NCBI GenBank assembly: GCA_017433195.1
Contig: JAFRHR010000052.1
Span: 1 to 39,004 of the forward strand
DNA: 39,004 nt
Direction: 5' to 3'
Source of the DNA: a bacterium
GTDB lineage: Bacteria > Cyanobacteriota > Vampirovibrionia > Gastranaerophilales > Gastranaerophilaceae
Part shown: positions 10,838-34,058 of the stretch, piece by piece
How the letters are laid out: each line of letters opens with the position of its first letter
Numbering within the stretch: position 1 is the stretch's first letter
Notes under the pieces: model-generated
Databases searched by the model: none
What the model saw: only the letters and a program-made list of their open reading frames with translations
Told to the model about the DNA's origin: nothing
Made by a program: the position numbers and the translations under genes

Positions 10838-10949
10838 AATTACATAAATTTTAAGTTTACAAACCTTAATAAAGCATGGTTTTTTAGCAATTTTTTTTCT
10901 TCATAATTTTATAATTAAGTAGATGGTGTAGTTTTTTGCAAAGGTTTAT

Positions 10950-12194
10950 ATGGAAATCTCTAAAATTTGTTTAAACAATGCGTTTTTCCAACGTAAAAAC
11001 AATAATTCCGTTCATGAAAAAACTTTAAATTTTTCCACGAATCCTTTGTCATGCAAACTACTCAACAGTCCGTCAGCAGATACCTTTGTAAAATCACCGG
11101 AGAGCTTATCCTTCACCTCAAACAGAGGTCCGGCAGGAAAAACATCAGAAGCCTTTATACTGAAAGGCATTGATAGAATCAGAGGGCCTTACAGCGGTAT
11201 CCCTATGATTTCAAGAGATACAATGGAGCAATTATGTGACAGAATAGATAAGGCAAACTCCCCTCAGGATATGATGAATATCATAAGACCGTATCAGGAT
11301 TGCCTTCAGCCTGTCCAAAAAGAAGTATTCTATTTGGTTGACGGATATCTGAACAAATATCCGAATGCTTCAATAAACGAATGTCTGGCATCAAAATTAC
11401 CTACATCAGTAAGAAGATTGGGAGAAAAAGAAAGACAAATTCTTACAACCATACATGATAGCCTTGACACCATAACTTTCAGACCGGACAAAAACAAATT
11501 AAAAAGAGTTGTTAACGACGGTATTCGTAAAACTCGTGAATATACGACAGGAACAAACAAAAAAGGTGAAACTGTAATTACGGGTTCTAATTTCAGAAGA
11601 AAAAAATTAATCAATTCATTTAAAGATGTAAAATCTTATTACTGCGACAATAATAATGAATTTTATTACAAATCGGATGAGAGAATATTTACACCACTTG
11701 AAAAACTATATGAATCATTACCTGAATCAAAATACGATTTTGATGCATTTGTCGTAAAATACGGACAACCCAACAAAAGCAACAAAGAAATTGCAAGAAA
11801 TATAATTCAACCATCAATGGCAACTGTTGAACACATTAAGACCGTAAAACATGGCGGCAAAAACGACCTGAGAAACTTTATGTTGGCAACAGATATTAAA
11901 AACTCTGAAAGAAGTGACGATAACCTTGCAACCTATACCCGCAAACACCCTGAAATAAAACAATACTGTCAGTGGTATACCGATGACATTATAGGGCTTA
12001 TAAAAGACGGCAAAATGAAAGGTTACGAATGGTATCCTTATGCGTTAAAAGAAACCCTTAAAAATGAATCAGCAGGAGAAATAGTCATTGACGTTTCAGA
12101 ACTGAATCTTACCGAAAAACAGATTCAGCGAGGCATTGCTTATTATGAAGTTGCAAGGGAAGAACGTCTTACAAGAGCTAACGAAATGCACTAA
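10950..12194 (+). CDS. Hypothetical protein with C-terminal HNH-like motif, 414 residues
   Basis: No full-length family recognised. Residues 1-75 are Ser/Asn-rich and look disordered. Residues 75-260 are mostly helical. Around residue 294 lies VEHIKTVKHGGKNDLRNFML, then KNSER. The order E-H, GG, N, N matches the core of HNH nucleases (E294, H295, then the two Asn positions). The usual zinc-binding Cys pairs are absent, which also holds for many HNH subfamilies. It is alone, with no adjacent immunity, methylase or integrase gene. It could be a nuclease, an effector or a degenerate fold. A weak AAGG lies before the ATG. Confidence 0.7.
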   Translation: MEISKICLNNAFFQRKNNNSVHEKTLNFSTNPLSCKLLNSPSADTFVKSPESLSFTSNRGPAGKTSEAFILKGIDRIRGPYSGIPMISRDTMEQLCDRIDKANSPQDMMNIIRPYQDCLQPVQKEVFYLVDGYLNKYPNASINECLASKLPTSVRRLGEKERQILTTIHDSLDTITFRPDKNKLKRVVNDGIRKTREYTTGTNKKGETVITGSNFRRKKLINSFKDVKSYYCDNNNEFYYKSDERIFTPLEKLYESLPESKYDFDAFVVKYGQPNKSNKEIARNIIQPSMATVEHIKTVKHGGKNDLRNFMLATDIKNSERSDDNLATYTRKHPEIKQYCQWYTDDIIGLIKDGKMKGYEWYPYALKETLKNESAGEIVIDVSELNLTEKQIQRGIAYYEVAREERLTRANEMH

Positions 12195-20531: not shown

Positions 20532-20573
20532 TTCCCGTATATATACAAAGTATTTACTTTTTTAAAAATTGAC
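20532..20573 (-). promoter_or_regulatory. Shared upstream element, copy A
   Basis: On the minus strand this reads GTCAAT, 16 bases, ACTTT, then GTATATATAC (20537-20546) and GGGAA. With one flanking base it is almost identical over 43 bases to 26405-26447, and it sits at nearly the same distance (32 bases) from its start codon. The spacing does not fit a simple sigma-70 -35/-10 pair at the GTCAAT box. Confidence 0.7.
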
Positions 20574-20614
20574 TTTTAGGGGATAAATATTAAGAAGTGT
20601 TACAAAATACGGTA

Positions 20615-26318: not shown

Positions 26319-26404
26319 GAAAAACCCAAAACCATCTGTATATAAGCCTTTTGCTTAAGAAAGAAAAAATTTTTCTTAACATTTATTAACATTTATTCCC
26401 AAAA

Positions 26405-26447
26405 AGTCAATTTTATAAAACATAAATACTTTGTATATATACGGGAA
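26405..26447 (+). promoter_or_regulatory. Shared upstream element, copy B
   Basis: GTCAAT, 16 bases, ACTTT, the perfect palindrome GTATATATAC (26433-26442), then GGGAA. It is about 39 of 43 bases identical to copy A at 20532-20573, and ends 31 bases before the ATG at 26479. Such identity between two non-coding stretches in front of unrelated genes points to a regulatory role. Confidence 0.7.
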
Positions 26448-26478: not shown

Positions 26479-26727
26479 ATGGCAATAGGCGCAAGAGATA
26501 AGATTGATCGTTTGTTAGTTCAAAAATATCAAACAGAACAAGTTGACAATCATGACATTGAATACAATATGGTAGACGCAAGAGAAATGATGAGTGCTAT
26601 GAATGATTACGCATCAGTTCAGAGAAACATGTTAGCACTTTCTTCAAGATTAAAAATGGTTTGTTATTCTGTTAACGCAAACAATGCACAATACAGAAGC
26701 ATCAGACCATTAAAAGGGCTGTGTTAA
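26479..26727 (+). CDS. Small unrecognised protein, 82 residues
   Basis: Not recognised. AAAAAGGGGA before the ATG supports the start. It is helical, without signal peptide or membrane segment: MAIGARDKIDRLLVQKY, then a second helix (REMMSAMNDYASVQRNMLAL), and a C-terminal tail ending in KGLC. The size and helical hairpin pattern could suit a secreted WXG100-like or adaptor protein, but it has no WXG motif. It has its own promoter element (shared with the ribbon-helix-helix gene) and its own strong terminator, so it is an independently controlled unit rather than the end of the signalling operon. Confidence 0.75.
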   Translation: MAIGARDKIDRLLVQKYQTEQVDNHDIEYNMVDAREMMSAMNDYASVQRNMLALSSRLKMVCYSVNANNAQYRSIRPLKGLC

Positions 26728-33874: not shown

Positions 33875-34058
33875 AAATATATGTTAAATTTTGTAAACCC
33901 CACAAAGCATTAATATATCTTACTTATTACAATTTTGAGAAATTTAATCTCGCAAAATCAGCAATTTTAATGTTAAAATTGTTTTTATATTTATATGGAT
34001 GTGAAGTTTAATAAACTTTAAACCCAAGAGTGTTATATTAAGAGAAAAGGAGATTACT

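Follow-up and report, generated by a model that had tools for sequence, protein, structure and literature searches.

A conserved intergenic element of the Gastranaerophilales is probably an alternative-sigma core promoter, distinct from the likely operator of a ribbon-helix-helix protein

The window analysed here, a contig of 39,004 nucleotides from a bacterium of the Gastranaerophilaceae (GCA_017433195.1, JAFRHR010000052.1), carries nearly the same non-coding element upstream of two unrelated genes, one encoding a ribbon-helix-helix (RHH) protein and the other a protein of 82 amino acids. What does this element do? The initial annotation took it to be an operator through which the RHH protein would regulate both its own gene and the 82-aa gene, the two forming a small regulon. 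The observations on which that proposal was built are confirmed. When searched for with a 46-base pattern that covers it, the element is found solely at 20532-20577 (minus strand) and 26402-26447 (plus strand), with 0 matches expected from 100 dinucleotide-preserving shuffles, and the two copies are identical at 40/44 bases. The distance from the last base of the element to the ATG is 32 nt for the RHH gene and 31 nt for the 82-aa gene, and both copies contain a perfect palindrome, GTATATATAC, in their core. The features of the window are given in Table 1.

Table 1. Promoters, sequence elements and genes in the window
Feature	Position	Strand	Evidence
Core promoter of RHH gene, 44 nt, AAGTCAATTTTTAAAAAAGTAAATACTTTGTATATATACGGGAA	20532..20575	-	PWM 36.8 bits; R1 model E 1.0e-7
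Proposed -35 hexamer TCAATT, RHH gene	20567..20572	-	CAATT columns 90-100% conserved (38 sites); fixed 17-nt spacer
Proposed -10 hexamer TTTGTA, RHH gene	20544..20549	-	TT columns invariant
Palindrome GTATATATAC, possible (weakly indicated) RHH site over -10	20537..20546	-	Sequence; GTATATA-type enrichment in RHH and C19-sigma promoters
Ribbon-helix-helix gene, 62 aa	20311..20499	-	Pfam RHH_1 E 1.5e-10
Core promoter of 82-aa gene, 44 nt	26404..26447	+	PWM 33.7 bits; R1 model E 4.1e-8
Proposed -35 hexamer TCAATT, 82-aa gene	26407..26412	+	Conserved CAATT columns; fixed 17-nt spacer
Proposed -10 hexamer TTTGTA, 82-aa gene	26430..26435	+	TT columns invariant
Palindrome GTATATATAC, 82-aa gene side	26433..26442	+	Sequence
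82-aa gene, order-specific family	26479..26727	+	Matches in 83/116 relatives
Further strong class site, facing left contig end	417..460	-	PWM 27.7 bits; R1 E 3.5e-7
Weaker class site, 57 nt before 174-aa gene	33958..34001	+	PWM 16.8 bits
Weaker class site, 22 nt before 414-aa gene	10884..10927	+	PWM 14.7 bits

Two such similar copies could stem from a DNA segment that was duplicated recently, and 28/40 of the bases upstream of them also agree. Agreement falls to 15/40 downstream, however, and a duplicated segment is rejected because orthologues of both genes carry the element independently, in the same place across genera; we regard this origin as very improbable indeed. The pair is not private to the window. 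A third site in the same genome, before an unrelated 169-aa gene, is identical to each window copy at 39/44 bases, and the sites before the 82-aa paralogue 82c and before a gene on another contig (C7) share 42/44 bases with each other. The near-identity of the window pair is simply the look of strong members of one class.

We collected the upstream regions of relatives of the RHH and 82-aa genes and fitted a two-block matrix, which gave a motif of approximately AAGGCAATTTTT, 9 nt and AATACTTTATATATATACRGGA. The 9-nt gap between the blocks is present in 57/62 orthologous promoters drawn from both gene families. Over 38 sites, the CAATT and TT columns are 90-100% conserved and the TT is invariant. 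Written as a promoter, the class consensus is [G/T]CAATT, a fixed N17 and TTTATA, followed by TATATAC and purines. The pattern CAA.T-N17-TTTAT occurs in 13 upstream regions; the reverse-complement, reversed and shuffled controls gave 0-4, and spacers other than N17 between CAA.T and TTTAT give counts near background. A degenerate pattern of GCAATTT and TTTATATA with a 17-base gap misses the class, the actual gap being 16.

Gene-context statistics of the motif were taken from 395 kb, about a quarter of this genome, which is 84.6% complete. The matrix, trained on some of the sites that were afterwards counted, finds 20 sites of at least 14 bits in this sample, and 20/20 are intergenic although 87% is coding; the same matrix finds 0 sites in the reversed sequence of the sample. 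Nearly all of these sites are followed on their own strand by an open frame. Site counts per genome come from whole-genome searches with a sequence model, R1, and this genome-wide scan, as called for in the initial annotation, gives 53 sites at E<=0.1. Among the genes downstream of sites in this genome are two that encode RHH proteins and three 82-aa paralogues, together with many that encode small or repetitive proteins specific to the lineage.

These properties suggest what kind of element it is. The element has two blocks with a constant spacing of about 17 nt, points in one orientation towards the gene and lies in intergenic DNA shortly before genes, as does a core promoter of the sigma70 family. 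The blocks are not those of an RpoD promoter, as the consensus is GCAATT/TTTATA and not a TTGACA-like -35 with a TATAAT-like -10. Upstream of several tRNA genes of this genome there is a TTGAC/TATAAT-like sequence instead of the class, and RpoD-like promoter signals are separately enriched in upstream regions. Conservation, fixed spacing, orientation, intergenic position, restriction to one order and the dissimilarity to tRNA promoters all support the class; the counterpoint to a promoter reading is that TTTATA does not have the usual A at the second -10 position. The palindrome had been placed over the likely -10 region. That the region is a promoter is supported, but GTATATATAC lies inside the -10 block and is mostly dictated by the promoter consensus.

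The class is a property of the order. The number of R1 sites per genome is 17-64 in 58/58 Gastranaerophilales genomes; for 24 genomes representing other orders of Vampirovibrionia, some of which had as many first-look candidates as the order genomes, it is 0-7. The 82-aa family is likewise placed in Candidatus Gastranaerophilales, and among the relatives listed (83/116 with a match) there is no match outside the order. The 82-aa protein has no Pfam, PDB or Foldseek relative. We considered whether it might be a type III needle and do not propose this: the protein is predicted to be helical, but the model is poor (pTM 0.32) and Foldseek, Pfam and PDB gave nothing. A maf-like gene often follows the 82-aa gene (L019-L047, L134), and at one of these loci (L134) there is an FlhB/SctU-like start further downstream.

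Several other observations concern the sites and the genes behind them. In this genome two 82-aa paralogues are arranged in tandem (G000:C49, L078:3935-4789), each with its own class site; that of the second lies about 250 nt before the gene, with unexplained intervening sequence. Many class-downstream proteins have a short polar N-terminus (L080, L081, L084, L096, L209 and window positions 10950-12194) with a [ST/N]F[GKT][GQR]-like motif, for example SFKG, FTG or SFGR, and it is possible that this motif serves as a shared targeting signal. The intergenic regions of this genome also contain an interspersed palindromic repeat, CCTGA...TCAGG and TGAA...TGACA, which dominates the dyad statistics and partly swamped an unsupervised dyad search. 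In another genome, G025, the first bases of contigs C27 and C28 carry near-identical class sites and the same following gene start, which suggests a repeated gene breaking the assembly.

Which sigma factor could read such a promoter? Seven matches to Sigma70_r2 were found in this genome. When 76 RpoD-like sigmas of 20 genomes are placed in a tree, two clades prove to be confined to the order, and we call them C20-type and C19-type. The former is present in 13/13 and the latter in 12/13 of the order genomes in the tree, and both are absent from the seven outside genomes (0/7 each). In a second set, C19-type genes were found in 12 more genomes, and searching gave C20-type matches in the same 12, one of them ambiguous and absent from the tree, so that of the 25 order genomes examined at most one is without a C20-type sigma. 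This distribution is the same as that of the promoter class, as would be expected of its reader. Both order-only sigmas are nearest to RpoD and to cyanobacterial RpoD/SigA-family models and score below every curated cut-off. RpoD and another group-2-like clade have kept the promoter-contacting residues, while the C20-type is altered at T440 (to I/V/M) and R584 (to K) and the C19-type at T440, R441, R584 and R586. It has been reported that T440 contacts -12 and that T440I suppresses a -12 change; R584 contacts -31, and R584A prefers A:T over C:G at that position (PMC2613000). The class carries T where TTGACA has the C that is read at -31.

The genomes that lack the RHH protein show whether the element depends on it. 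No RHH homologue was detected in G025 and G059, which belong to one genus. Despite this, 41 elements occur in G025 (99% complete), and an element of 20.9 bits is still found at its 82-aa gene. An RHH operator should be found only alongside the RHH protein; the element is independent of it, because G025 retains the class, including the 82-aa promoter. The reading in which the RHH protein binds GTATATATAC and thereby joins the two window genes would account for the perfect palindrome in both copies, and for GTATATA-type sites being enriched in RHH promoters and before C19-type sigma genes. Set against the survival of the class in G025 and its presence before dozens of unrelated genes, most of them without the G of GTATATATAC, this reading is not supported, and we consider it quite improbable; the RHH protein may still bind GTATATATAC at the two window promoters, a possibility that the sequence weakly indicates.

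The likely operator of the RHH protein is GTATATAC, distinct from the 43-bp element. GTATATA[CT] or [AG]TATATAC occurs upstream of the core in 12/31 RHH promoters (0.5 expected), at 11-12 or 22-23 nt, and in 0/29 of the 82-aa promoters. RHH self-control is therefore probable, acting through the GTATATAC-type palindrome and not through the 43-bp element, and RHH control of the 82-aa gene is not borne out. Sites of the GTATATA type are also found before 18/24 C19-type sigma genes (2.0 expected), often in tandem at 11-12 bp; the figures for other sigma genes, some with shorter upstream stretches, are 1/13, 0/12 and 0/13. In the best C19-type cases the arrays lie across an apparent TTGAAA-N17-TATACT, which is the position expected for repression. 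C19-type genes from genomes without a detected RHH protein have no such sites (0/3), these three genomes amounting to about two lineages, one genome being just 66% complete, and hence to few independent losses. The GTATATAC arrays thus show both target specificity and loss alongside the RHH protein. As judged from these sequences, the best candidate target beyond the protein's own genes is a sigma-factor gene, the C19-type. The idea of an RHH regulon is partly supported, but the target was the wrong one.

If the C19-type were the reader of the promoter, RHH repression of its gene would govern the class indirectly. The C19-type clade is confined to the order, has changes at all four residues named above, and its gene carries the GTATATAC arrays. 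On the other hand, G072 (99% complete) is without a C19-type sigma and yet has 27 model matches; four sites of at least 24 bits are found in 279 kb, one of them just before an RHH gene, and none in the control. We consider the C19-type an unlikely reader, and the C20-type is favoured because G072 keeps the class. The class is probably read by an alternative sigma, for which the C20-type (G000:C20:4743-5714) is the likeliest candidate on the grounds of co-occurrence. Against this candidate, no clear class site was found in the upstream region of the C20-type gene itself. Our literature searches found no paper naming both Gastranaerophilales and sigma factors, and none on the relative Vampirovibrio with sigma factor and promoter.

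Since it is by co-occurrence in a single order that the C20-type is linked to the class, any order-specific activator would fit equally. RpoD could read the promoter with the aid of such an activator bound at GCAATTTTT, and an activator site at fixed spacing would look alike. However, GCAATTTTT is neither a palindrome nor a direct repeat, unlike the usual activator sites, TTTATA is a poor RpoD -10, and a constant spacer of 17 nt is the geometry usual for sigma factors. Overall, RpoD with an activator seems to us improbable, to about the same degree as the C19-type sigma.

Taken together, we think there is a good probability that the element is an order-wide core promoter read by an alternative sigma, the C20-type, and that the RHH protein forms a separate layer of control through GTATATAC. 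The promoter would consist of a -35 of [G/T]CAATT, a fixed 17-nt spacer, a -10 of TTTATA, TATATAC and a purine-rich start region, and the C20-type sigma would read the promoters of the class. The RHH protein would bind GTATATAC arrays and repress the C19-type sigma gene; it would act also on its own genes, as an added layer outside the 43-bp element.

The order also has a second type III export apparatus. In addition to a flagellar FHIPEP export gate, where there is one, all order genomes tested encode a gate of a second type. In this genome an operon with FliE, FliF, FliH and an FlhA-like gene (L209:10220-16108, G000:C67) is separate from the flagellar operon on C35, and order genomes without the flagellar type retain the second export operon. 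Its FlhA-like protein reaches neither the FlhA nor the SctV curated cut-off. There is also a 490-aa protein that matches only the C-terminal half of FHIPEP (L210:2920-4389, G000:C34), and a similar half-FHIPEP protein of about 485-520 aa occurs in nearly every order genome tested. A link between this apparatus and the promoter regulon is speculation. It is conceivable, though rather doubtful, that the order has a private programme, with two RpoD-derived sigmas with altered residues, one of them RHH-repressed, and a class regulon of lineage-specific small proteins that are possibly exported by the second, non-flagellar apparatus.

With a recognisable promoter, a regulon can be read from each genome of this uncultured gut order, and dozens of genes, mostly without known function, are brought together under a single control. 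Order-specific RpoD paralogues, altered at the residues contacting -12 and -31, are also linked by it to a definite DNA signal, and it can therefore be tested how copies of RpoD gain new promoter specificity.

Among known systems, the cyanobacterial type 3 promoters read by SigF (pilA1, sigF) have TAGGC at -32 and GGTAA at -12 (PMC2758279). Like these, the present class is probably an alternative-sigma class of the Cyanobacteriota, unlike RpoD -35 and -10 sequences and with tens of candidate genes, and its upstream block is often TAGGCAATT. The TAGGC/GGTAA pair is not found here, however; in the place of GGTAA the -10 block reads TTTATA, and SigF was set aside as the reader on account of this difference. 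The class is also absent from other orders of Vampirovibrionia, and its candidate reader is RpoD-like. In this last respect the closer parallel is with the cyanobacterial group 2 sigmas, which are RpoD-like and non-essential, as both order-only sigmas are nearest to RpoD. Group 2 sigmas share RpoD promoters, whereas the order-only sigmas fall below the curated cut-offs and are changed at T440 and R584.

Finally, the RHH protein resembles the autorepressors CopG, EndoAI and NikR in being short and in having spaced palindromic arrays before its likely targets, and its PDB relatives are EndoAI and a CopG-family regulator. The half-site of NikR is GTATGA, which resembles the GTAT-ATAC found here. 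In contrast with these systems, the RHH protein has no metal-binding domain, no adjacent toxin gene was seen, and its likely target is a sigma-factor gene.
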